This document shows positions 1,195-20,938 of a stretch of DNA of 22,588 nucleotides, piece after piece. The stretch's first letter is position 1. Each line of letters begins with the position of its first letter. The notes under the pieces were generated by a model. It was not told the origin of the DNA, did not search any database, and saw only the letters and a program-made list of their open reading frames with translations. Origin of the DNA: a virus; IMG/VR virus record IMGVR_UViG_3300025872_002014, positions 1 through 22,588 of that record. The stretch is one strand, 5' to 3'. A program made the translations under genes and the position numbers.

Positions 1195-3102
1195 TTACTT
1201 CTTATCGGCAGGTTTTTCAGTAAACTCAGCATCAACAACCGTGTCCTTGCTGTCTTCTGCTGGTTTAGCTTCGGCTGCTGCCTTTTCAGCCTCGCTCTTG
1301 ATGCGATACAACTCGTTGGTTGACTGCATCATGTCTGAAATCTTGGTGCGAATCACTTCTGGATCATCACCCTTTTTTACTTCTTCTAGTGCTGCAATAG
1401 CCTCTTCGATTTTCTTAGCTTCGTCCTCAGGTAACTTTGATTTATATTCATCAAAGTCCTTCTTAACAAAATCAATTTGACTATCTGCACTATTACGAGC
1501 ACCAACTAGTTCAACAACTTTCTTATCAGCTTCGGCATTGTCCTCGGCATCTTTTACCATGCGTTGAATTTCAGCCTCACTTAGACCTGAACTGGCCTTG
1601 ATAGTGATGTTGTTTTCTTTGCCAGTGTTCTTGTCTGCTGCACGTACTTTGAGAATACCATTGGCGTCAATGTCAAAGGTAACTTCGATTTGTGGCTGTC
1701 CTTTTGGTGCTGGCGGAATACCATCCAAACTAAATTCACCTAGCAACTTATTATGTACAGCAACTTCACGCTCACCTTGGAATACCTTGATAGTAACAGC
1801 AGGTTGGTTATGCTCGGCTGTAGAGAATACTTGGCTATGCTTGGTAGGAATAGTTGTATTCTTTTGAATCACTTTAGTCATTACACCACCTAAAGTTTCA
1901 ATACCAAGACTTAATGGAGTAACGTCAAGCAAGAGCACATCCTTACGATCACCTGCTAGTACAGCGCCTTGTACAGCAGCGCCAACTGCTACAGCTTCGT
2001 CTGGGTTCACGTCTCGACGTGGAGCACGACCAAACAACTTTTCTACAGTATCTTGTACTTTGGGCATACGAGTCATGCCACCAACAAGAATAACTTCGTC
2101 AATGTCCCCAGTTGAGACACCAGCATCTCGCATGGCAGTTTGGCATGGGCCTACACTGCGTTGAATTAACTCATCTACCAGACTTTCTAGTTTAGCACGA
2201 GTGATGTTAATGTTCATGTGCTTGGGACCAGTAGCATCAGCAGTAACATAAGGCAAGTTTACTGCGGTACTGTTCGTACTTGACAATTCGATCTTGGCCT
2301 TTTCTGCTGCTTCTTTTAGACGCTGTAGAGCCAATACATCTTTAGAGAGGTCAACACCTTGTTCCCGTTTGAACTCGTCAATCAAGTAGTCCATCAAGCG
2401 TTGGTCAAAGTCTTCACCACCTAGGAACGTGTCACCGTTGGTGCTAAGTACTTCGATTTGCTTGTCACCATCTACATTGGAAATCTCAATGATTGACACG
2501 TCAAATGTACCACCACCTAAATCGTATACAGCTACCTTACGATCCGCTTTATCCGATTTATCAACGCCATAAGCCAGCGCGGCAGCAGTCGGTTCATTAA
2601 TGATACGAAGAACTTCCAAGCCAGCAATGCGGCCAGCATCTTTAGTAGCTTGACGCTGACTATCATTAAAATAGGCCGGAACAGTAATAACAGCTTGGGT
2701 AACATCATGGCCTAGATAGTCCTCTGCGGTCTTTTTCATCTTACGCAGTACTTCAGCACTCACCTGAGGTGGTGCCATACGTTCACCGTTGGCCTCAATC
2801 CAAGCATCACCATTGTCGGCCTTGACGATGCTATATGGCATAAGGCCAATGTCTTTTTGTACTGCTTCTTCCTCAAAGCGGCGACCAATTAGACGCTTTG
2901 CGGCATAAATTGTATTCTTGGGATTGGTTACTGCTTGACGTTTTGCTGGTGCACCAACTAAGACTTCTGCGTCAGTGTAAGCAACAATACTGGGAGTGGT
3001 TCGTGCGCCTTCGGCATTTTCTAGAACCTTTGTGGTTCCATTCTCTACAACTGCTACGCAACTATTGGTGGTACCTAAATCGATACCAATGACTTTGCTC
3101 AT
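1195..3102 (-). CDS. dnaK: Chaperone DnaK (Hsp70), full length
   Basis: This is a complete 635-aa Hsp70, the usual bacterial length (E. coli DnaK is 638). In order: [13 protein letters not shown] at the N-terminus (phosphate 1), [21 protein letters not shown] (phosphate 2), VGGMTRMP (adenosine motif), the interdomain linker [19 protein letters not shown], the substrate-binding domain with [12 protein letters not shown] and [10 protein letters not shown], then a helical lid ending in [15 protein letters not shown]. No catalytic motif is missing, so it should be an active ATPase. AAAGGAG precedes the ATG. The promoter upstream is a sigma70 consensus whose -10 is also an exact TATAAATA. No dnaJ or grpE is present in the window, so it presumably uses host co-chaperones. 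hsp20 and clpS follow. A full DnaK is unusual in phage genomes; identity is certain, phage ownership is inferred from the surroundings. Confidence 0.98.
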
Positions 3103-4984: not shown

Positions 4985-5521
4985 CTACAACCTACTATTA
5001 ATCACGCCCCAATTGATTATCCGCCAAATGTTATCGAGGTATTTTTTCTTGTTGGTGCCGTAATCAGTGACCCAAACGTGTTCCCACCAATCCACCAATA
5101 ATAGTATGTCTGTGCGTTTTGCATGATTTTTAATAGTTTTGATTTCACCATTTCTAGCCAAGTATACCCACCCTGAACCTTGTACACCCATGGCAGTCTC
5201 GGCAAACTTTTCCTTGAAATCACCAAAAGTGTTATACTTCTTGTTAATTAATGTATTAACTGGTCCGGCTGGTCTGTTATTGCTAGTAGGTGAACGAAAT
5301 TGTTCAAAAAAGATATTGTGTAAGAAAGCACCGGCTTCGTTAAACGAAGGATCACCCTTGCCATCATTGTAGCGTTCTACGTACCCACGAGCTAGGTCAA
5401 GGTGCCTATTCATGGCTAATTCTGTAAGAACAGGAGCTAGTGCACCACGTGAATAACGTAGTTTTTTTAATTCTAGTTTGGTGCTGCCTTCAACAATGGT
5501 AATTAAGTCACGTATATCCAT
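4985..5521 (-). CDS. sod: Fe/Mn-family superoxide dismutase
   Basis: It converts superoxide to peroxide and oxygen. The 178-aa protein aligns over the E. coli SodB length. All four metal ligands are visible: H40, H68 (GAFLHNIFFEQF), D144 and H148 (VDWWEHVWVTDY). GSGWVYLARNG matches the conserved GSGW segment and WRIINW the C-terminal one. Position 64, four residues before H68, is Gly where FeSOD has Gln. H133 (KNHAK) stands where MnSOD has Gln, as in some actinobacterial and archaeal enzymes. The gateway His30 of E. coli FeSOD is not conserved, though Y48 may be the gateway Tyr. Metal choice cannot be assigned. It ends one nucleotide from infA and just before the membrane protein gene. No signal peptide, so cytoplasmic. 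Confidence 0.9.
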   Translation of the reverse strand: MDIRDLITIVEGSTKLELKKLRYSRGALAPVLTELAMNRHLDLARGYVERYNDGKGDPSFNEAGAFLHNIFFEQFRSPTSNNRPAGPVNTLINKKYNTFGDFKEKFAETAMGVQGSGWVYLARNGEIKTIKNHAKRTDILLLVDWWEHVWVTDYGTNKKKYLDNIWRIINWGVINSRL

Positions 5522-11711: not shown

Positions 11712-11988
11712 TGGTGCCCCCTCCAGGAGTCGAACCTGGCACCTCTCGATTCTGGTTTGTGTAACTTTCGTTACTCCCTGGACTATGCCTTCACCATATC
11801 TTACGACTTAGGTGGGTGCCGTCTAGTCTCTACACCTTCCTGATATTTCTATTAGGCTTGGCTCGGCGTTGCCATATTTTTACACTTAGGTTTCACCGAA
11901 TTTGACACCATCCCATATATAGTTTCCTAATATATGGCACAACATTTTCATGAGTCGATTGCTCTAACCATCCATGAGCTAAGGGGGC
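11712..11988 (-). tRNA. tRNA-Ile(CAU), interrupted by a group I intron
   Basis: The two exons (11950-11988 and 11712-11751) join into a complete tRNA with encoded CCA. Acceptor GCCCCCT pairs with AGGGGGC, D stem GCTC/GAGC, T arm CCAGG-TTCGACT-CCTGG, anticodon loop CTCATAA with anticodon CAT. Base pair 1-72 is G-C, which rules out initiator tRNA, and the anticodon arm GACTCATAATC matches E. coli tRNA-Ile2. CAU would then be modified to lysidine by host TilS to read AUA. One mismatch (27/43) sits at the end of the anticodon stem. An elongator tRNA-Met is the alternative. The 5' exon also codes for the end of the endonuclease. Confidence 0.9.
11752..11949 (-). ncRNA. Group I intron (IC3, Azoarcus type), 198 nt
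   Basis: A self-splicing ribozyme in the anticodon loop, between U36 and A37. The 5' exon ends in CAT and the intron ends in G, as group I rules require. GTG at 11938-11940 can act as internal guide pairing with exon CAU. The core is nearly identical to what I recall of the Azoarcus tRNA-Ile intron (205 nt): GATGGTGTCAAATTCGGTG, CAACGCCGAGCCAAGC, GTGTAGAGACTAGACGGCAC and ATGGTGAAGGCATAGTCCAG. Peripheral hairpins carry GAAA loops: P2 (GGAAAC), P6a (ATAGAAATAT) and P9 (GTAACGAAAGTTAC). P2, P5 and P6 stems are AT-rich, unlike the GC-rich Azoarcus ones. No ORF lies inside. Confidence 0.95.
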
Positions 11989-12583
11989 CTGTAAATGTTT
12001 TCTTTCTTATCTTGTTAATTTCATCTTCTTTAATTATATATAGTTTGTTTGGAAATTGCGACCATTTCGATTGATCTCTATCAGTTTCATAACCTTTTAC
12101 TTCTACATAAGCATCTTCACAGACTAGATAGAAATCAGGAAAGTAAGTTCTGTTACCATTCCAATGGTACGAAAATCCTTTAGTATTTCTAACTATATTA
12201 TACCCGTTTGATTGAGCCCATTTATAAAATTCTAGCTCCCAATTTCCTTGGAACTTTATACCGTTATACTCGATTTGCTTTGTCCTTCCTCTATTTGCAG
12301 AAGTGTAAGATTCAGGATGATTTTCAACAGCCAATTTCATTTTTTGACTGTGGAGCTCTCGCTGTTCATTTGTCCAAATTTGTGGGTTAATTTCTTGATG
12401 TTTGCTTATCTTTGCTTTTGTTTCCTCGGACATTATAGCACCATAGGTATATTGATTCGCTCCCTTTTTTCCTAACATTCCGTATGAAGGACTAACTCTA
12501 TTTGGATTTTTAGGACAGCGAATTTGGTGATGTACATGTCCTCTTAAATTTTTAGCAGGCCTCCCGCAGTATTCGCACTCCAT
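11948..12583 (-). CDS. PD-(D/E)XK homing endonuclease overlapping the tRNA 5' exon
   Basis: This 211-aa protein begins with a zinc-finger-like CEYC...HHQIRC (C3, C6, H19, C23), then a NUMOD3-like MSEETKAKIS DNA-binding segment and a second similar helix (WTNEQRELHSQKM). It ends in a nuclease domain with NWELEFYKW, FPDFYL (D150) and YVEVKGY (E161, K163), the PD-(D/E)XK signature also used by the cyanobacterial tRNA-intron enzyme I-Ssp6803I. It lies outside the intron: its last 13 codons are read from tRNA exon 1, and the stop TGA straddles the splice site. After intron loss or splicing the same position reads TAA. It probably cleaves intronless tRNA-Ile alleles or nearby DNA. Its RBS is masked by a hairpin. 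No HNH, GIY-YIG or LAGLIDADG motif is seen. Confidence 0.88.
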   Translation of the reverse strand: MECEYCGRPAKNLRGHVHHQIRCPKNPNRVSPSYGMLGKKGANQYTYGAIMSEETKAKISKHQEINPQIWTNEQRELHSQKMKLAVENHPESYTSANRGRTKQIEYNGIKFQGNWELEFYKWAQSNGYNIVRNTKGFSYHWNGNRTYFPDFYLVCEDAYVEVKGYETDRDQSKWSQFPNKLYIIKEDEINKIRKKTFTGPLSSWMVRAIDS

Positions 12584-16052: not shown

Positions 16053-16265
16053 TTACCAATCTCTGTGGTCAGTTATGGTGACAACAAAATCACCATCGGT
16101 GTCTTTGTGAGTAATCTGAAAGGTGGCTCTGAGTTCATAGCCAATACCAGAGTCTTCATCATGTTGAGTAAGAGTAACAAATCCTACATTGCCAGTGGTA
16201 TGAATGGTGTCAAAAAGTTCTTTAATTCTCTCTACTTCTCTCTTACATAATCTAATGGTGTTCAT
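16053..16265 (-). CDS. Small beta-rich protein, 70 aa
   Basis: From ATG 16265 the sequence is MNTIRLCKREVERIKELFD, then alternating strands (VGFVTLTQHDEDSG, YELRATFQITHKD, FVVTITDH). It could be a small beta domain. The AGGATTAGAAGAATGAAC context resembles the array's joint sequence, which decides the start. Function unknown. Confidence 0.68.
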   Translation of the reverse strand: MNTIRLCKREVERIKELFDTIHTTGNVGFVTLTQHDEDSGIGYELRATFQITHKDTDGDFVVTITDHRDW

Positions 16266-16275
16266 TCTTCTAATC

Positions 16276-16359
16276 CTAATTCTTAGGCCAGCCCCAAACA
16301 AAACCTGTGATAAAACCTATCACATAACAGGCCAGCAGTGCCAAACCAATCTCGTTCAT
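16276..16359 (-). CDS. Tiny membrane peptide, 27 aa
   Basis: The 27 residues are almost one membrane helix (ALLACYVIGFITGFVWGW). The gene starts inside the joint repeat of the preceding paralogue (ATGA overlap, GGAG supplied by the FGVEE codons). Very short, but the RBS, start and position match its neighbours. Confidence 0.6.
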   Translation of the reverse strand: MNEIGLALLACYVIGFITGFVWGWPKN

Positions 16360-16607
16360 TCTTCAACTCCGAAATGTGATTCTAAATCATATACAAGGAG
16401 ATCAAATGCCTGCGTGACATTTTGCTGATCTTCCCCAGCAAACTGCTGCCGTGATCTTACTCGGTTCATACATTCTTTCACAATCAACTCGGCGAACTTT
16501 TCTTGATTGAATTTGTAATAAACTAATTCTTTTTGATTATACGAATCCCAAGTAGTATAATCATATTCGGTAGCCTGTTTGATAAGTTCTCGAATTCGTT
16601 CGTTCAT
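16356..16607 (-). CDS. MNERIRE-family paralogue, 83 aa
   Basis: MNERIRELIKQATEYDYTTW starts it, FAELIVKECMNRV is in the middle and LESHFGVEE ends it, so all three family blocks are intact. The middle between them (DSYNQKELVYYKFNQ) is unlike other members. Its own RBS comes from the end of the 35-aa membrane-peptide gene, where GGAGTTGAAGAATG is read in another frame. Function unknown. Confidence 0.8.
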   Translation of the reverse strand: MNERIRELIKQATEYDYTTWDSYNQKELVYYKFNQEKFAELIVKECMNRVRSRQQFAGEDQQNVTQAFDLLVYDLESHFGVEE

Positions 16608-16610
16608 TCT

Positions 16611-16718
16611 TCAACTCCAAAGATATTTGATTAAGGCAGCAGCAAATAACAAGTGTATAATACCTTTACAAATAGCAAACACACCTGTCCAGAAAAAATG
16701 TAGTTGTAATTGGTTCAT
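16611..16718 (-). CDS. Tiny membrane peptide, 35 aa
   Basis: HFFWTGVFAICKGIIHLLFA is a single membrane helix; the peptide ends in KYLWS. It starts in the joint sequence after the HFGVEE end of the upstream paralogue, and its last codons contain the joint of the next gene in a different frame. Confidence 0.62.
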   Translation of the reverse strand: MNQLQLHFFWTGVFAICKGIIHLLFAAALIKYLWS

Positions 16719-16981
16719 TCTTCAACTCCGAAATGTTGTTTAACTTGACTTGCGACTTTGCTTACACCTTTGTTGTATCCGGCAATAAACTGGTCATTGG
16801 GATAATTGTCATCAAACTCAACAGCACATCCTTCGACCCGAGCAATACATTCCCACACAATCAACTCGGCGAACTTTTTGTATCCAGCATCAATGGAACC
16901 AAAGAAAGCAGGTCCAATTTCGCCATCTGCATTTACTTTCAATCCAGCCTGTTCAGCAAGTTCTCGAATTCGTTCGTTCAT
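16715..16981 (-). CDS. MNERIRE-family paralogue, 88 aa
   Basis: It starts MNERIRELAEQAGLKVNADG, has FAELIVWECIARVEG, and ends QVKQHFGVEE. The middle contains EIGPAFFGSIDAGYKK and NDQFIAGYNKGVSKVA. It is one of the best preserved family members. The RBS is GGAG at the end of the 45-aa gene. Function unknown. Confidence 0.82.
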   Translation of the reverse strand: MNERIRELAEQAGLKVNADGEIGPAFFGSIDAGYKKFAELIVWECIARVEGCAVEFDDNYPNDQFIAGYNKGVSKVASQVKQHFGVEE

Positions 16982-17115
16982 TCCTTGTCTCCATATAGAG
17001 CACTATGTAATCTTTCCATTCTTTCAGCAGCCATAATCAATAACATCTTCAATGCTATGTTATCTTGGCTTTCACTGGCCTTACGCAGGGTATTGATTAG
17101 TTCTTGATTAGTCAT
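16978..17115 (-). CDS. Small helical protein, 45 aa
   Basis: The sequence MTNQELINTLRKASESQDNI followed by LLIMAAERMERLHS suggests two short helices. Start from the joint repeat behind the upstream paralogue, ATGA overlap at both ends. Not recognised. Confidence 0.65.
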   Translation of the reverse strand: MTNQELINTLRKASESQDNIALKMLLIMAAERMERLHSALYGDKE

Positions 17116-17348
17116 TCTTCAACTCCGAAATGTCGGGCTATCATATCCACACCCTGTCCTCTACTGATCATATCACGCAGCATAGGATTTAGGGCCAGAC
17201 AACATTCTTTGATAATCAACTCAGCAAATTGTTGATCATAAGCATGAAGGAAATCCCAGTTGAGTCGACCATCCTCGGAGACCACATCGCCCATTTCATC
17301 AATAAGCGAATCCCAGGCCTGTTCAGCAAGTTCTTTAATCCTGGACAT
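17112..17348 (-). CDS. MNERIRE-family paralogue, 78 aa
   Basis: Its N-terminus is MSRIKELAEQAWDSLIDEMG, followed by FAELIIKECCLALNP and the end MIARHFGVEE. It shows the family's typical FAELI-x3-C core and the full joint sequence at its 3' end. It overlaps the end of the 76-aa membrane protein gene by 14 nt. Confidence 0.8.
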   Translation of the reverse strand: MSRIKELAEQAWDSLIDEMGDVVSEDGRLNWDFLHAYDQQFAELIIKECCLALNPMLRDMISRGQGVDMIARHFGVEE

Positions 17349-17565
17349 CCCATTTACCTTTATTCAACTCGAGTAGTTTGGAATAGTAAGCATCATGATA
17401 TATAGCACCTGCGATCATTAAGGCGAACACGGATGCAATTACCACAAACAAATAAAATAAATCAATATAGCCTACAACAACAAAGATAGATATCGTGCTG
17501 AGGTAAATCAAGATTATCTTGGTGGCATGCCAGCGAGCTTGGCGTTCTAGACTATTCACGATCAT
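17335..17565 (-). CDS. Small membrane protein, 76 aa
   Basis: After a basic N-terminus (SLERQARWHATK) two membrane helices follow (IILIYLSTISIFVVVGYI and LFVVIASVFALMIAGAIY) with a short polar tail. It overlaps both neighbours by 14 nt. Positive charge before the first helix suggests the N-terminus stays in the cytoplasm. Confidence 0.72.
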   Translation of the reverse strand: MIVNSLERQARWHATKIILIYLSTISIFVVVGYIDLFYLFVVIASVFALMIAGAIYHDAYYSKLLELNKGKWDVQD

Positions 17566-17779
17566 AGGCTCCGGCTATCTCAGCGGCTCGTTCTCGTATG
17601 GCACGACCAGCGGCTTCTTGAGCATTGGTATAGGCCGAATCGTCACTTAGGCTATTGAAGCCTTGATACAGATGCCATTCACCATTACGCTGACATTGAA
17701 CTTGGATGTCATAAGTGAGCTTGAAGGGATCACCAAGACTGATGACTCTAACCAAACCATAATCATGTATAACTCTCAT
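17552..17779 (-). CDS. Small hypothetical protein, 75 aa
   Basis: The segments LVRVISLGDPFKLTYDIQVQ and GEWHLYQGFNSLSDDSAY suggest a small beta sheet followed by a helix (AQEAAGRAIRERAAEIA). AGGAG lies 6 nt before the ATG. No known family recognised. Confidence 0.72.
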   Translation of the reverse strand: MRVIHDYGLVRVISLGDPFKLTYDIQVQCQRNGEWHLYQGFNSLSDDSAYTNAQEAAGRAIRERAAEIAGAYDRE

Positions 17780-17796
17780 CGCTGACTCCTGTGGGT

Positions 17797-17976
17797 TTAT
17801 CTGGCGCGGTGTAAACGGTATTTGTTATGCAGTGCTCGTGTCAGTTCATATACTTCAACCATGGTCCGGGCATGATGTTCTTCTACAATGATATCTGCAG
17901 AAACCAACTGTACACGCCAGTGTGCTAGATCTATGTCGAACCAACTGATGATACGATAATCGGGATTGGTACTCAG
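17797..17976 (-). CDS. Small protein, 59 aa, apparent CTG start
   Basis: An open frame without ATG reads STNPDYRIISWFDIDLAHW, then ADIIVEEHHARTMVEVYELT and ends HNKYRLHRAR. It begins at CTG in GGAGTTGGATCCTGA, exactly where other array genes have GGAGTTGAAGAATGA. The stop of the upstream paralogue overlaps the CTG as it overlaps ATG elsewhere. So the start is either a working CTG or a recently lost ATG. Confidence 0.6.
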   Translation of the reverse strand: MSTNPDYRIISWFDIDLAHWRVQLVSADIIVEEHHARTMVEVYELTRALHNKYRLHRAR

Positions 17977-18182
17977 GATCCAACTCCGAAATGTTTGGAA
18001 TCAATTCCAAACCGATCCAAGATGTTTAGTGCTTCATTACAAGTCACACTCTTAACACATTCCTGAATAATCAACTGGGCGAACTTTTCCGCAAAGTATT
18101 CATGTTCTTCACTGGCATAAGGAGCATGAGCATCTGCCCAGTCTTGAGCCTGTTCATTCAGTTTACGAATTAGTTCGTTCAT
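17973..18182 (-). CDS. MNERIRE-family paralogue, 69 aa
   Basis: From ATG 18182 it reads MNELIRKLNEQAQDW, has FAQLIIQECVKSV in the middle and ends DSKHFGVGS, a variant of HFGVEE. Its GGAGGTGAGAATG RBS lies in the HFGGE codons of the upstream paralogue, with a 20-nt overlap. A longer frame to 18224 would lack an RBS. Confidence 0.8.
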   Translation of the reverse strand: MNELIRKLNEQAQDWADAHAPYASEEHEYFAEKFAQLIIQECVKSVTCNEALNILDRFGIDSKHFGVGS

Positions 18183-18402
18183 TCTCACCTCCGAAATGTT
18201 CTCTGATAGTATCTTGAGCAGCACCTACCATACTATGGTTTCTGCTCAACGGTTTCAGACAATCAATACATTCTCGCACAATCAACTCAGCAAACTTTTC
18301 CATACGATGGGTATTAAACATATAAACACCTTGTATGGAAATATGTCCATCTTTTTCTTCAAATCCAGCCTGTTCAATAATTTCTCTAATTCGTTCGTTC
18401 AT
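18163..18402 (-). CDS. MNERIRE-family paralogue, 79 aa, first of the long array
   Basis: From ATG 18402 it reads MNERIREIIEQAGFEEKDGH, has FAELIVRECIDCL, and ends REHFGGENERTNS, running 20 nt into the next paralogue. An in-frame ATG 30 nt upstream is part of the promoter leader and lacks an RBS, so I exclude it. AAGGAG precedes the chosen start. The promoter at 18433-18461 probably drives this and the array behind it. Confidence 0.82.
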   Translation of the reverse strand: MNERIREIIEQAGFEEKDGHISIQGVYMFNTHRMEKFAELIVRECIDCLKPLSRNHSMVGAAQDTIREHFGGENERTNS

Positions 18403-18432: not shown

Positions 18433-18461
18433 AGTATAGCACTAGTCAAAAGACCTGTCAA
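18433..18461 (-). promoter_or_regulatory. sigma70 promoter, repeated unit copy 1
   Basis: Minus-strand TTGACA, 17-bp spacer, TATACT, followed by the shared leader ACAGTAAACAACAAGGAGCA and an ATG. AATAACCC lies just before the -35, as in copy 3. It heads the long paralogue array. Confidence 0.9.
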
Positions 18462-18470
18462 TCTCTAGGG

Positions 18471-18647
18471 TTATTCTGTAATGTAACGCAGTTCCTCAAT
18501 AGCCTCGTCCAAAGTGTTGAATCCGGTGGCATCGTAGCTGTCATCGTAGAGCTTGACATAGTAGGCTCCGTTACCTTGACTTGCTTCTCTGTCAAACCCT
18601 GCTTCGCCAACTTCGGTGAAATACTGAATGATTCGGGTAATTTCCAT
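18471..18647 (-). CDS. Small acidic protein, 58 aa
   Basis: MEITRIIQYFTEVGEAGFDR starts it and FNTLDEAIEELRYITE ends it, with YYVKLYDDSYDATG between. The pattern of one strand pair and a C-terminal helix with DEAIEEL is common in small phage proteins. AAGGAG precedes the ATG at acceptable distance. It is the second gene behind promoter copy 2. Confidence 0.72.
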   Translation of the reverse strand: MEITRIIQYFTEVGEAGFDREASQGNGAYYVKLYDDSYDATGFNTLDEAIEELRYITE

Positions 18648-18657
18648 ACACCACTCC

Positions 18658-18954
18658 TTAGGCTATATCCAACTCTTGTGCTGGGTGGGTGATCCTGCCG
18701 TCGAACCGGAGCTGATTATGCTCGTCCTGGGTGAGGTAGTCGTCCTCAACCACTGACCATGAGATGACATGCTCGCTATAGTAGGGGTGATCGGCTTCGA
18801 TGTCACCACGGACCTGTTCGACCACATCGCGTACGGAGTCGAATAGGCGGAAGTTTTTAATGACATAATCACTGCCTCCTTTGGGTTTCCAACGGGGTTG
18901 ATGTAAGGAACCATAGTTCTCGTAAACTTGCGTAGTGATCAACAATTTGGCCAT
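18658..18954 (-). CDS. Hypothetical phage protein, 98 aa
   Basis: MAKLLITTQVYENYGSLHQ at the start, then KPKGGSDYVIKNF, ADHPYYSEHVISWSVVEDDY and GRITHPAQELD. I recall near-identical openings in uncharacterised proteins of large aquatic phages, unverified here. It is soluble, acidic and directly behind the perfect promoter copy 2, so it is probably expressed early and strongly. Function unknown. Confidence 0.8.
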   Translation of the reverse strand: MAKLLITTQVYENYGSLHQPRWKPKGGSDYVIKNFRLFDSVRDVVEQVRGDIEADHPYYSEHVISWSVVEDDYLTQDEHNQLRFDGRITHPAQELDIA

Positions 18955-18986
18955 TTCAACTGCTCCGTGTTGTTTACTGTACCACT

Positions 18987-19015
18987 ATTATAGCAAAAAT
19001 GGGCAACCCTGTCAA
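18987..19015 (-). promoter_or_regulatory. sigma70 promoter, repeated unit copy 2
   Basis: TTGACA-17-TATAAT is an exact consensus. The spacer GGGTTGCCCATTTTTGC is nearly the same as in copy 4, and the leader ACAGTAAACAACACGGAGCA is the shared one. Confidence 0.92.
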
Positions 19016-19025
19016 CCTGTTGTAT

Positions 19026-19172
19026 CTATGCTACAATCTCCCAGAAGATCTTTGGATTCAGTCGTTGCCTCTGACGCCAGTAGGGCAAGGCCCAAGCAAG
19101 GTTAGTCTCTATGACAATAGGAGTCATTTGACCCATCAAGTTCCTATGCCGGCTCATATACACTCGCATCAT
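19026..19172 (-). CDS. Small basic protein, 48 aa
   Basis: The frame reads MMRVYMSRHRNLMGQMTPIV, then IETNLAWALPYWRQRQRLNP and ends KIFWEIVA. It is basic and rich in Arg and Trp. AAGGAGAGG lies in the last codons of the upstream gene, and the start overlaps its stop (ATGA). Translation is likely; function unknown. Confidence 0.7.
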   Translation of the reverse strand: MMRVYMSRHRNLMGQMTPIVIETNLAWALPYWRQRQRLNPKIFWEIVA

Positions 19173-19351
19173 TGTATGACCTCTCCTTGTTCAGAATAAA
19201 GATAACAGTTAGAACCTTCGGGTCCTGACAGGTATGATTGGGCGGCTTCTAGTGAGGCAAACACGCCTGCCACTGAAGGTCCAAGTCCACGATCTTCTTC
19301 TAGCACTACGAACACTCGTAGTACGGCTAGTGCTTGTTCTCGATCCATCAT
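19169..19351 (-). CDS. Small hypothetical protein, 60 aa
   Basis: From ATG 19351 it reads MMDREQALAVLRVFVVLEED, then FASLEAAQSYLSGPEGS and CYLYSEQGEV. It looks like a small alpha/beta domain. The upstream extension of the frame lies in promoter copy 3 and is not coding. AAGGAG precedes the start. Confidence 0.75.
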   Translation of the reverse strand: MMDREQALAVLRVFVVLEEDRGLGPSVAGVFASLEAAQSYLSGPEGSNCYLYSEQGEVIQ

Positions 19352-19383
19352 TTTGCCTGCTCCTTGTTGTTTACTGTAACCAT

Positions 19384-19412
19384 AGTATACTACCACTTCA
19401 AAGACCTGTCAA
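19384..19412 (-). promoter_or_regulatory. sigma70 promoter, repeated unit copy 3
   Basis: TTGACA, 17-bp spacer, TATACT, then ATGGTTACAGTAAACAACAA as in copy 1, and AATAACCC upstream. It drives the 60-aa and 48-aa genes. Confidence 0.9.
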
Positions 19413-19421
19413 CTTCGAGGG

Positions 19422-19703
19422 TTATTCACCTCCGAAATGTAGTCTAATCGCTAGCCCACAAGTTCTACTTCCGCGATGAATGTAATTCTCATCGGCGACA
19501 TTAGCACATTCTTCTACAATCAACTGGGCGAACTTTTCTCTACCTTTTTCACAGTCAAACAAAACACTGATGATTTCTGAGGGAGTGGCGACTCGCCATT
19601 CGCCATCAACTTGGCATAGAATTTCTCGGTCGTTGTAATCCCACTCACCATCTATTACAGGTAGTCCAGCCTGTTCAGCAAGTTCACGGATTCGTTCGTT
19701 CAT
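19422..19703 (-). CDS. MNERIRE-family paralogue, 93 aa, separate from the array
   Basis: MNERIRELAEQAGLPVIDGE starts it, FAQLIVEECANVA is the core and IRLHFGGE the end. A middle segment (NDREILCQVDGEWRVATPSE) is longer than in other copies. It lies outside the main array with its own leader (AAGGAGCAGACG before ATG), the same leader used after the promoter repeats, so the copy may have moved with that leader. Confidence 0.82.
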   Translation of the reverse strand: MNERIRELAEQAGLPVIDGEWDYNDREILCQVDGEWRVATPSEIISVLFDCEKGREKFAQLIVEECANVADENYIHRGSRTCGLAIRLHFGGE

Positions 19704-19713
19704 CGTCTGCTCC

Positions 19714-19803
19714 TTAAACTTCGTCCCAACGCCAACCTTTGAAATAAGCCCGCATTGTAAGCAGGGTTGCGATAGCCCCGATTGTGATCAGAATGTCTGT
19801 CAT
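19714..19803 (-). CDS. Tiny membrane peptide, 29 aa
   Basis: From ATG 19803 it reads MTDILITIGAIATLLTMRAY and ends GWRWDEV: one membrane helix with a charged tail. The longer open frame lies over promoter copy 4 and its leader. AAGGAGCAGACG is a strong RBS. Confidence 0.7.
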   Translation of the reverse strand: MTDILITIGAIATLLTMRAYFKGWRWDEV

Positions 19804-19833
19804 CGTCTGCTCCTTGTTGTCTACTGTACCCAT

Positions 19834-19862
19834 AGTATAGCAAAAATGGGCGACCCTGTCAA
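19834..19862 (-). promoter_or_regulatory. sigma70 promoter, repeated unit copy 4
   Basis: TTGACA, 17-bp spacer (GGGTCGCCCATTTTTGC), TATACT and the leader ACAGTAGACAACAAGGAGCA. It drives the 29-aa peptide and the separate MNERIRE paralogue. Confidence 0.9.
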
Positions 19863-19864
19863 GT

Positions 19865-20047
19865 TCAGGGCCATTGTTGTTTTTCTGCCACACGCTCCAA
19901 AACAATGACCTGTTTTTCCAAGAGTTGGCACCCATCTACCAAGTGATTGGTGATCGCTAGGGTGCCATCAATTTCGCATAGATTATGTATAGCCTGATAC
20001 AACAGACTCAGGGTGATTTCCAATTTGGGTAAATCTTGTACAGTCAT
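19865..20047 (-). CDS. Small helical protein, 60 aa
   Basis: MTVQDLPKLEITLSLLYQAI and CQLLEKQVIVLERVAEKQQ are long amphipathic helices that could form a coiled-coil dimer. CCAGGAG precedes the ATG. It has its own promoter and a structured leader of about 80 nt. Function unknown. Confidence 0.72.
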   Translation of the reverse strand: MTVQDLPKLEITLSLLYQAIHNLCEIDGTLAITNHLVDGCQLLEKQVIVLERVAEKQQWP

Positions 20048-20060
20048 TTCAAACTCCTGG

Positions 20061-20125
20061 GTAGCAAAGTAGCAGCACAGGGATCATCTGCCGGAGCAAT
20101 TTGTCTGTTCGTCCCTGTTTGCTAC
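20061..20125 (-). promoter_or_regulatory. Structured 5' leader hairpin
   Basis: On the minus strand GTAGCAAACAGGGA can pair with TCCCTG...TTTGCTAC (8 + 6 bp with a 9-nt bulge). It starts a few bases after the predicted transcription start and ends next to the CCAGGAG site of the 60-aa gene. It could protect the mRNA or control translation. Confidence 0.5.
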
Positions 20126-20134
20126 TATGATCAT

Positions 20135-20163
20135 AGTATAGCACAAATGAATAACCCGCACAA
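20135..20163 (-). promoter_or_regulatory. sigma70 promoter overlapping a hairpin
   Basis: The -10 TATACT is 17 bp from TTGTGC, a half-matching -35. The surrounding TGCTATACTATG resembles the repeated promoter units, but the leader differs. The -35 lies within the hairpin at 20150-20176. Confidence 0.68.
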
Positions 20164-20176
20164 CTGGCGGGTTATT
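20150..20176 (-). terminator. Perfect hairpin after the QGVAE gene, probable terminator
   Basis: AATAACCCGC and GCGGGTTATT form a 10-bp perfect stem with a 7-nt loop, about 27 nt after the stop of the modular gene. On the minus strand CATTTG follows rather than a full U tract, so termination may be partial. Confidence 0.5.
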
Positions 20177-20203: not shown

Positions 20204-20938
20204 CTAAGAGCCTTTTGCCACACCTTGCTGTTTAGATTTTTGTTGATCTTTGTTTTGTTGATCTTTGTTTTGTTGACGCTGTGCTCTTTGCTTTTCGTTC
20301 TTTTTCTTTCGTGCTACTTCTTTTTGAGCATCAGTCCATGTATCGTGCCCCCATTGGTCAAATCCCCAGCCTTCCGAGACACCTTGCTTCAACTGTGATA
20401 GTATTTGTTCTTTTTGTTTTTGTAACTCTTGTCTTTTCTTGACGAATGATACGCTGTTAGGTTCACCAACTGGACCACCCCTCATTAATTTTAGCTTTTG
20501 ATTAATTGATTGAAGTTGTGAGTGTAATTCTTCTTTGCCTTCCGCCACACCTTGCTTCTTACCCTGTTCATAGCCTTTCTTGTATTGGCCGTGTTCTTGT
20601 TGTTCACCTGGTTGATCATATGGATTATCATATGGACGACCTTTTTTAGCATCTGCTCGCCCTTGATCGTATGGAGTTGGCATACCTGGATTGCCAGTGC
20701 CTCTTAAGCCTTCCGCCACACCTTGCTCTGCTTTTTTCTCTTGCTCTCTACGCTTCGCATAGTCGCTTGTTTGAGCAGGTGCTTTTTTACGAGCAGGACG
20801 CTTACCACTTATGATACCTTCTTCACGCTCTCTGCGACGGAAATAATCTGAAGTCTCCGCCACACCTTGCTGTTTTTTACTCTCTTGTTTTCTACCACGC
20901 AAGTAGTGTGAGTTTTCAGTAATTTCTCTTGCTTTCAT
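20204..20938 (-). CDS. Modular low-complexity protein built of QGVAE-joined segments, 244 aa
   Basis: Five copies of (K/E)QGVAE or a close variant (GVSE, GVAK) cut the protein into segments of about 25-55 residues. The segments differ: a start MKAREITENSHYLRGRKQ; a TSDYFRRREREE / TSDYAKRREQEK duplication with ARKKAPA; GNPGMPTPYDQGRADAKKGR with a DNPYDQPGEQQEHG stretch; a helical LHSQLQSINQKLKLM part; and a tail with NKDQQNKDQQ repeats. It is very hydrophilic, charged and probably disordered. No enzyme motif is seen. The repeats are conserved at DNA level. A late-like promoter precedes it and a hairpin follows. Role unknown; virion or scaffold association is a guess. Confidence 0.8.
   Translation of the reverse strand: MKAREITENSHYLRGRKQESKKQQGVAETSDYFRRREREEGIISGKRPARKKAPAQTSDYAKRREQEKKAEQGVAEGLRGTGNPGMPTPYDQGRADAKKGRPYDNPYDQPGEQQEHGQYKKGYEQGKKQGVAEGKEELHSQLQSINQKLKLMRGGPVGEPNSVSFVKKRQELQKQKEQILSQLKQGVSEGWGFDQWGHDTWTDAQKEVARKKKNEKQRAQRQQNKDQQNKDQQKSKQQGVAKGS
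20211..20872 (-). repeat. Dispersed 20-bp repeat encoding QGVAE, five copies
   Basis: Minus-strand AAGCAAGGTGTGGCGGAAGG or variants occur at about 20211-20230, 20369-20389, 20537-20557, 20708-20728 and 20853-20872. Spacing is about 145-170 bp. Copies 3 and 4 are identical over the core and the others differ by a few bases. The segments between them are unrelated in sequence. Confidence 0.85.
20242..20276 (-). repeat. 15-bp tandem repeat, over two units
   Basis: On the plus strand GTTGATCTTTGTTTT occurs twice in a row followed by a partial third, coding NKDQQ repeats near the C-terminus of the modular gene. It is a likely site of slippage. Confidence 0.8.

Follow-up and report, generated by a model that had tools for sequence, protein, structure and literature searches.

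Why should one short DNA sequence close a gene and open the next, repeatedly and in more than one reading frame? The question is raised by a 22,588-nucleotide stretch of viral DNA (IMG/VR virus record IMGVR_UViG_3300025872_002014, positions 1 to 22,588), hereafter the window, in which an array of very small genes is punctuated by copies of a sequence that we call the joint (GGAGTTGAAGAATGA). A first-pass annotation of this DNA had described it as a cassette joint, at which homologous recombination may insert, delete, and shuffle genes. Comparison with related loci makes it likely that the array consists of interchangeable pieces lying between two frozen blocks of DNA, the joint (block A) and a second block within genes (block B), and that these pieces are exchanged by homologous recombination. 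The array is carried by a group of uncultured tailed phages that includes T4-like and other large phages.

At least seven genes of the array, from 19703 to 15818 on the minus strand, belong to one small family. Its members have a conserved start (MNERIRELAEQAG), a conserved middle (KFAELIVREC), and a conserved end (IKxHFGVEE), with two variable stretches between them (short signature, MNERIKELAEQA...KFAELIVREC...IKxHFGVEE). The joint occurs in four exact copies on the minus strand, at 16356, 16604, 16715, and 17112. The copies at 16356, 16715, and 17112 also match an extended form (CGGAGTTGAAGAATGA), in which the copy at 16604 has T in place of the first C. The 15-base core recurs with two mismatches at 16262, also on the minus strand, and decayed or variant joints lie at 18179-18192 (GGAGGTGAGAATGA), 17973-17987, and 19422-19433. 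The joints and the genes that they connect are as follows.

18179..18192, minus strand: variant joint; ends family gene 18402-18163 and, in comparison with locus L040, marks the left-hand crossover (common block ACATTTCGGAG)
17112..17126, minus strand: exact joint; ends family gene 17348-17112 (HFGVEE-stop), carries the Shine-Dalgarno sequence GGAG, and starts the 45-aa gene 17115-16978
16978..16992, minus strand: joint-like sequence with four mismatches (GGAGACAAGGAATGA); ends the 45-aa gene (YGDKE-stop) and starts family gene 16981-16715
16715..16729, minus strand: exact joint; ends family gene 16981-16715 and starts the 35-aa hydrophobic open reading frame (ORF) 16718-16611
16604..16618, minus strand: exact core in the LWS-stop frame; starts family gene 16607-16356
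16356..16370, minus strand: exact joint; ends family gene 16607-16356, starts a 27-aa gene (MNEIGLALLACYVIGF, 16359-16276), and, in comparison with L040, marks the right-hand crossover
16262..16276, minus strand: joint with two mismatches; precedes gene 16265-16053 (MNTIRLCKREVERIKEL); in L080 and L112, the joint ahead of this gene is exact

The copies at 16356, 16715, and 17112 encode HFGVEE-stop, with the stop and the next start overlapping as ATGA. At 16604, the same bases form the end of the 35-aa hydrophobic ORF (...IKYLWS-stop) and lead into the start MNERIRELIKQ at 16607. The block A consensus (AACATTTYGGAGTTGAAGAATGAACGAACGAATT) serves simultaneously as one gene's final codons and stop, as a Shine-Dalgarno sequence (GGAG, with a 7-nt spacer), and as the opening codons of the next gene. 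These observations agree with the first-pass annotation, which had read the joint as FGVEE-stop in most copies (three of the four exact ones, as (F)GVEE-stop), had seen the same bases end a membrane peptide as LWS-stop before the gene at 16607, and had taken the joint to be gene end, ribosome-binding site, and next start at once. The conservation in two frames that it reported extends to related phages: in loci selected by the joint, upstream nonfamily genes end in the GVEE, [RW]S-stop, or ELKN frame, some of them with a KHFGVEE tail. Across the loci, 289 clusters of nonfamily genes begin at a joint with no more than two mismatches. We also observed that the joint together with the usual start ATGAACGAACGAATTAA contains stops in all three frames, so that an upstream gene ends quickly whichever frame it uses (e.g., ...ELKNERTN-stop in L023).

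Chance occurrence of the joint was considered and rejected. With up to three mismatches allowed, the window contains five matches compared with 0.23 in shuffled sequence, and no shuffle reached five; chance is ruled out by these shuffles and by counts in loci selected by protein similarity. In those loci, an exact joint without a called family gene upstream was found at 13 of 182 family starts and at 9 of 532 nonfamily starts near arrays, compared with none of the 732 starts far from arrays and none of the 83 starts on the other strand. A scan with RGGAGTTGAAGAATGAA for out-of-frame joints was not used alone for rates because it has few fixed bases and many of its matches may be due to chance; loci lacking family genes were dropped.

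To avoid circularity, we examined codon usage at the joint in 82 loci picked by protein similarity, with the joint itself disregarded. Among 94 genes ending in FGVEE, the final codons were GGA in 92, GTT in 90, and GAA GAA in all 94 (188/188), followed by the stop TGA in 93. Inside the same genes, GGA makes up 28%, GTT 39%, and GAA 78% of the usage, and TGA ends 48% of other genes. Block B (consensus GAAAAGTTCGCCGAGTTGATTGTnnnnGAATGT) is frozen as well. Its 20-base sequence AAGTTCGCCGAGTTGATTGT codes for KFAELIV in the middle of each family gene, and its codons are kept against the genes' own bias: AAG is used in 91% of cases versus 36% in the rest of the genes, TTC in 83% versus 23%, GCC in 90% versus 22%, GAG in 89% versus 19%, and TTG in 90% versus 32%. 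This freezing matters most because block B has no role as a Shine-Dalgarno sequence, stop, or start.

It is possible that the blocks are kept by selection alone, block A as an efficient start for coupled translation and block B as an essential helix, and that the shuffling is ordinary illegitimate mosaicism, of which only the joins at edges of genes or modules survive. The well-placed Shine-Dalgarno sequence and the ATGA overlap of block A are what such selection would favor, and phage genomes commonly show mosaic joins where one gene meets the next (PMC3029335). However, codons are frozen, against gene bias, at positions that have no Shine-Dalgarno or start role, namely, GTT in block A and AAG TTC GCC GAG TTG in block B. 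We consider selection alone unlikely, also in view of where homology between related loci ends.

We compared all pairs among 228 nonredundant loci (2.03 Mb, 753 family genes), in each of which the family copies all lie on one strand. The set mixes loci selected by the joint and by protein similarity. For each boundary reached by homologous DNA, we asked whether homology stopped there; per-site rates leave out pairs with stretches at least 99.5% identical. Homology stopped at exact joints at a rate of 0.975 (95% interval, 0.959 to 0.989) and at joints with one or two mismatches at a rate of 0.910. The rate was 0.845 at other tight boundaries touching a family gene, 0.602 at tight boundaries between other array genes, and 0.395 at tight boundaries far from arrays. 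Mid-gene, it was 0.102 in arrays and 0.018 far from them. When near-identical pairs were included, in the first loci, the corresponding contrast was 0.65 versus 0.22 to 0.31. Breakpoints are thus not randomly placed relative to the joints. That exact joints break more than other tight boundaries of the same arrays speaks against selection alone, although array boundaries without a joint also break often, as that explanation would have it.

On the right, the middle half of the homology ends fall 4 to 9 bases past the ATG; on the left, ends run from about 18 bases before the ATG to the ATG itself, with a median of 13 before. Of 674 array homology ends at identities of at least 90%, block A accounted for 238 and block B for 175, compared with 83 expected for the two together. 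About 57% of the partner sites at joint-side breaks carry a joint with no more than two mismatches.

Within family genes, homology ends concentrate at block B, with 14.5 and 11.6 ends per kb versus 0.7 to 2.8 in the variable parts; the interiors of nonfamily genes have 0.06 to 0.11. Among clusters of N-terminal halves with at least two distinct genes, 52 of 56 were combined with more than one C-terminal half, and 50 of 55 C-half clusters were combined with more than one N-half. Pairs of genes sharing an N-half had C-halves no more alike than random pairs did (median identity, 0.15 for both; P = 0.68, with the few pairs above 0.5 left out), and in the reverse test, N-halves of pairs sharing a C-half were likewise no more alike (P = 0.34). 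By this comparison of contigs, the two halves are exchanged freely at block B, and the unit of exchange is often half a gene because the second crossover block lies inside the family genes. More broadly, gene order, single genes, and half-genes vary between related phages, with breakpoints at blocks A and B. The genes of the window array and the copies of block B illustrate this pattern.

19422..19703, minus strand: family gene; C-half DNA 100% identical to L160 and 87 to 92% to L044, L079, L309, and L335; N-halves differ
18163..18402, minus strand: family gene; C-half 97% identical to L040; N-half differs
17973..18182, minus strand: family gene; N-half 93% identical to L044; C-half differs; ends HFGVGS-stop (decayed joint)
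17112..17348, minus strand: family gene; C-half type PMLRDMISRGQ, seen with many N-halves and downstream genes
16978..17115, minus strand: nonfamily 45-aa gene; also in L068 (96% identity) and L040 (76%), with differing neighborhoods
16715..16981, minus strand: family gene; N-half DNA 100% identical to two L160 genes with other C-halves
16611..16718, minus strand: 35-aa hydrophobic ORF between two joints; ends LWS-stop
16356..16607, minus strand: family gene; C-half 100% identical to L068
16276..16359, minus strand: 27-aa hydrophobic gene; the upstream gene differs among the window, L040, L044, and L158
15818..16051, minus strand: family gene; ends HFGVK-stop
19516..19535, minus strand: block B, one mismatch, within family gene 19703-19422
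18278..18297, minus strand: block B, two mismatches, within family gene 18402-18163
18067..18086, minus strand: block B, two mismatches, within family gene 18182-17973
17212..17231, minus strand: block B, five mismatches, within family gene 17348-17112
16857..16876, minus strand: block B, exact AAGTTCGCCGAGTTGATTGT, within family gene 16981-16715
16480..16499, minus strand: block B, exact, within family gene 16607-16356

Several differences between loci are clean enough to be read as single events. The difference between loci L158 and L044 is a single 161-bp gene, inserted in L158 precisely from joint to joint; relatives of this 54-residue gene are flanked by joints in four contexts (L158, L051, L162, and L160). 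L279 and L278 are 96 to 99% identical across 4 kb and differ by 412 bp between two copies of block B (a 34-bp repeat). Between L040 and the window, the match runs as far as the variant joint at 18192 and resumes at the joint at 16371; the 1.8 kb between these two joints are missing from L040, and the bases in common at the switch are ACATTTCGGAG. In clean insertions and deletions, the block is present as a 12- to 45-bp direct repeat at the junction, another feature that argues against selection alone. Of 418 units between neighboring joints, 168 contain a single family gene and 88 a single gene of another kind. Among the 55 recurrent nonfamily clusters that begin at a joint, 49 are found with more than one upstream partner.

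Could such shuffling be an artifact of metagenome assembly at short repeats? The loci are all assembled contigs, and the blocks are repeats of 15 to 35 bp. However, the shared halves are mostly 85 to 95% identical at the DNA level (108 of 144 N-half pairs and 82 of 110 C-half pairs), which argues against assembly chimeras, as they are not copies from one sample, and nearly all of these pairs come from different loci. Moreover, the same cassette is flanked by joints in four contexts. We regard assembly errors as a highly improbable source of the pattern.

The shuffling of genes at joints that the first-pass annotation had proposed is supported by the nonrandom breakpoints, by the 161-bp joint-to-joint insertion, and by the 1.8-kb block of the window missing from L040. 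Its view of the system as integrase free holds as far as tested: no tyrosine integrase was found in 33 large array-bearing records, with 14 of 14 controls positive, and no serine recombinase scored above the cutoff in the same records. What it missed is the equally active crossover block B inside the family genes. A gene inserted between two joints would, as that annotation had it, be translated immediately.

We infer homologous, short-homology recombination because the blocks are common to both sides of the events, because homology-rich sites break most, and because no tyrosine recombinase, and no serine recombinase above the cutoff, was detected. Exchange would proceed, probably by strand annealing over short homologies, between blocks in co-infecting or tandem copies. 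The phage's own replication and recombination machinery may assist (a RecA/UvsX-like gene is present in 16 of the 33 large array-bearing records), and a site-specific recombinase would have no part in it. A cassette ending in block A would thereby be placed in a translated, coupled position. The blocks themselves may be frozen by feedback, with only consensus-matching copies going on to recombine, and block A would be additionally constrained as ribosome-binding site and start.

Alternatively, exchange might be driven by an enzyme of its own, for example, a small nuclease of the GIY-YIG or HNH type or a recombinase that escaped recognition. Such an enzyme would recognize a core in both blocks (C-x-GAGTTGA), which would then be its specific sites of recombination or cleavage. 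The two blocks share TTCG(CC)GAGTTGA in different reading frames (16356-16370 and 16857-16876), which could be a common recognition core or chance. GIY-YIG matches (E ≤ 0.001) occur in 17 of the 33 large records, and a gene for an endonuclease-like protein containing NUMOD3 lies in the window at 11948-12583; the latter also has PHROG endonuclease and Holliday junction resolvase-like matches. Small GIY-YIG genes, some of them encoding single-domain proteins of about 104 to 112 aa, recur in records (e.g., G003, G007, G016, and G018) and loci (L282, L297, and L306) and are possible drivers of exchange. However, the GIY-YIG matches are weak, are missing from half of the records, and have no established placement beside arrays, and the 33 records yielded no tyrosine recombinase and no serine recombinase above the cutoff. 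We think such an enzyme very unlikely.

Several observations weigh against homologous exchange between the blocks as we propose it. The sequence data throughout are metagenome contigs, the loci are mutually dependent, and exchange is read from comparing contigs rather than seen directly. About 43% of the partner sites at joint-side breaks carry no recognizable joint. Breaks are also frequent at boundaries of family genes that lack a good joint (the rate of 0.845 above), so part of the joint's excess reflects family genes being the mobile units. RecA/UvsX was detected in only about half of the large records. Finally, gene ends and a protein-module boundary are where selection would tolerate illegitimate joins too.

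The array encodes small proteins that are mostly helical and have two variable halves. An AlphaFold2 model of the family protein encoded at 16981-16715 (mean pLDDT, 91.7) predicts, besides a short helix and a small hairpin, two long helices; block B falls within the second helix. The modeled protein matched no fold in the PDB at E ≤ 0.001, and its confident matches in BFVD were only unnamed or uncharacterized proteins. The family matched no Pfam or PHROG profile and had no relative among 50,697 INPHARED records at E ≤ 1e-5, where a single weak match was seen; its sequence motifs were not found in the literature searched. Scans of IMG/VR returned at least 120 stretches with a 19-base joint and at least 599 by protein, at least 383 of these being confirmed relatives. 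In GTDB genomes, the matches were four contigs of metagenome-assembled genomes from unrelated taxa, so the family is essentially phage borne. Large records carry up to 18 joints each, a count that the first-pass annotation had called for, in several clusters and nearly always on the same strand. A T4-like gp23 was found in 17 of the 33 large array-bearing records, and among the few loci looked at, no sharing was found between records with two kinds of gp23. Perhaps the family proteins are a combinatorial stock of host- or defense-interacting proteins, which is our guess.

Elsewhere, the window encodes a set of stress proteins close together, namely, DnaK/Hsp70 (635 aa; 1195-3102), Hsp20 (671-1123), and an iron/manganese superoxide dismutase (4985-5521). 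In the gene for a 244-aa protein at 20204-20938, a 20-nt sequence (AGCAAGGTGTGGCGGAAGGC on the coding strand, QGVAEG-like) recurs five times at spacings of 144 to 171 nt and is another frozen coding repeat.

A wider proposal, to which we give slightly less than even credence, is that blocks A and B form a self-maintaining recombination code: many large-phage lineages would draw on a common pool of whole genes and half-genes, from which new small proteins are assembled combinatorially, and the freezing would be upheld by recombination rather than by protein function. If so, this would be a phage diversity-generating system distinct from retroelements, integrons, and site-specific inversion. Phage mosaicism is usually put down to blind joining followed by selection, given how rarely boundary sequences in common are seen. 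In these arrays, which occur in T4-like and other large phages, the boundary sequences are easy to recognize, are present in large numbers, and are frozen as DNA; the building of new phage genes by recombination at short homologies is therefore directly testable. Synonymous recoding of the 20-base block inside a gene is predicted to stop exchange, and a group of unannotated small proteins would be explained as shuffled two-part products.

How does the array compare with known systems? Integron cassettes are small genes, each with a short site at one of its ends, that enter and leave an array singly. Here, too, single genes are gained and lost with one site each, as in the 161-bp gene that distinguishes L158 from L044. 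Unlike in integrons, no integrase was found in the 33 records, the site is coding and translated, and no folded attC-like site was detected: DNA folding at the four joints gave z-scores of -0.83 to +0.38, and a search for RNA or DNA structure at the joint found folding no better than in shuffled sequences.

The nearest parallels come from three phage systems. The start-associated sequences (SAS) of cluster K mycobacteriophages are short, invariant beyond the Shine-Dalgarno sequence, and present in 11 to 19 copies per genome, mostly in one orientation and ahead of unrelated genes; the stop codon of the preceding gene can fall within the SAS, and their function is left open in the available text of PMC3203893. 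The joint resembles them in containing a Shine-Dalgarno sequence, in being conserved beyond it, and in standing mostly in one orientation ahead of many unrelated genes. However, it does not match the 13-bp SAS consensus (GGGATAGGAGCCC), with which only the GGAG is common. No conserved C-terminal peptide, second intragenic block, or exchange of gene halves is reported for SAS in that text, and the array has all three.

Short boundary (linker) sequences have been proposed to mediate phage mosaicism via homologous recombination, as in the gene 67/68 case of Island3, where the last 18 residues of gp68 are common to gp67 (PMC3029335). The array is similar in that breakpoints coincide with a short sequence common to both partners, and differs in that many phages are served by a single boundary in hundreds of copies, together with a block inside genes. 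Promoter-stem-loop (PeSL) cassettes (Arbiol 2010 and Comeau 2014, as cited in PMC4503421) are repeated elements, made up of an early promoter and a stem-loop, that are reported to mediate gene shuffling in T4-type phages. The joint is likewise a repeated element that would mediate gene shuffling in T4-like phages; unlike PeSL elements as outlined there, it has no stem-loop, and no promoter-like site was found at the joints. PeSL-like elements, judged by that outline, do occur elsewhere in the window (18433-20176, minus strand). Strong sigma-70-like promoters (TTGACA-17-TATAAT/TATACT, four of them matching at 11 to 12 of 12 positions) lie on the minus strand at 18433-18461, 18987-19015, 19384-19412, 19834-19862, and about 20126-20176, in repeated elements of about 75 nt ahead of small genes, and terminator-like stem-loops lie at 20150-20176 and 19851-19873. 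Compared with SAS, linkers, and PeSL, the joint differs in sequence, is coding and translated, has no promoter or stem-loop, and is paired with a second block within genes. There is a real chance that the array deserves a category of its own.

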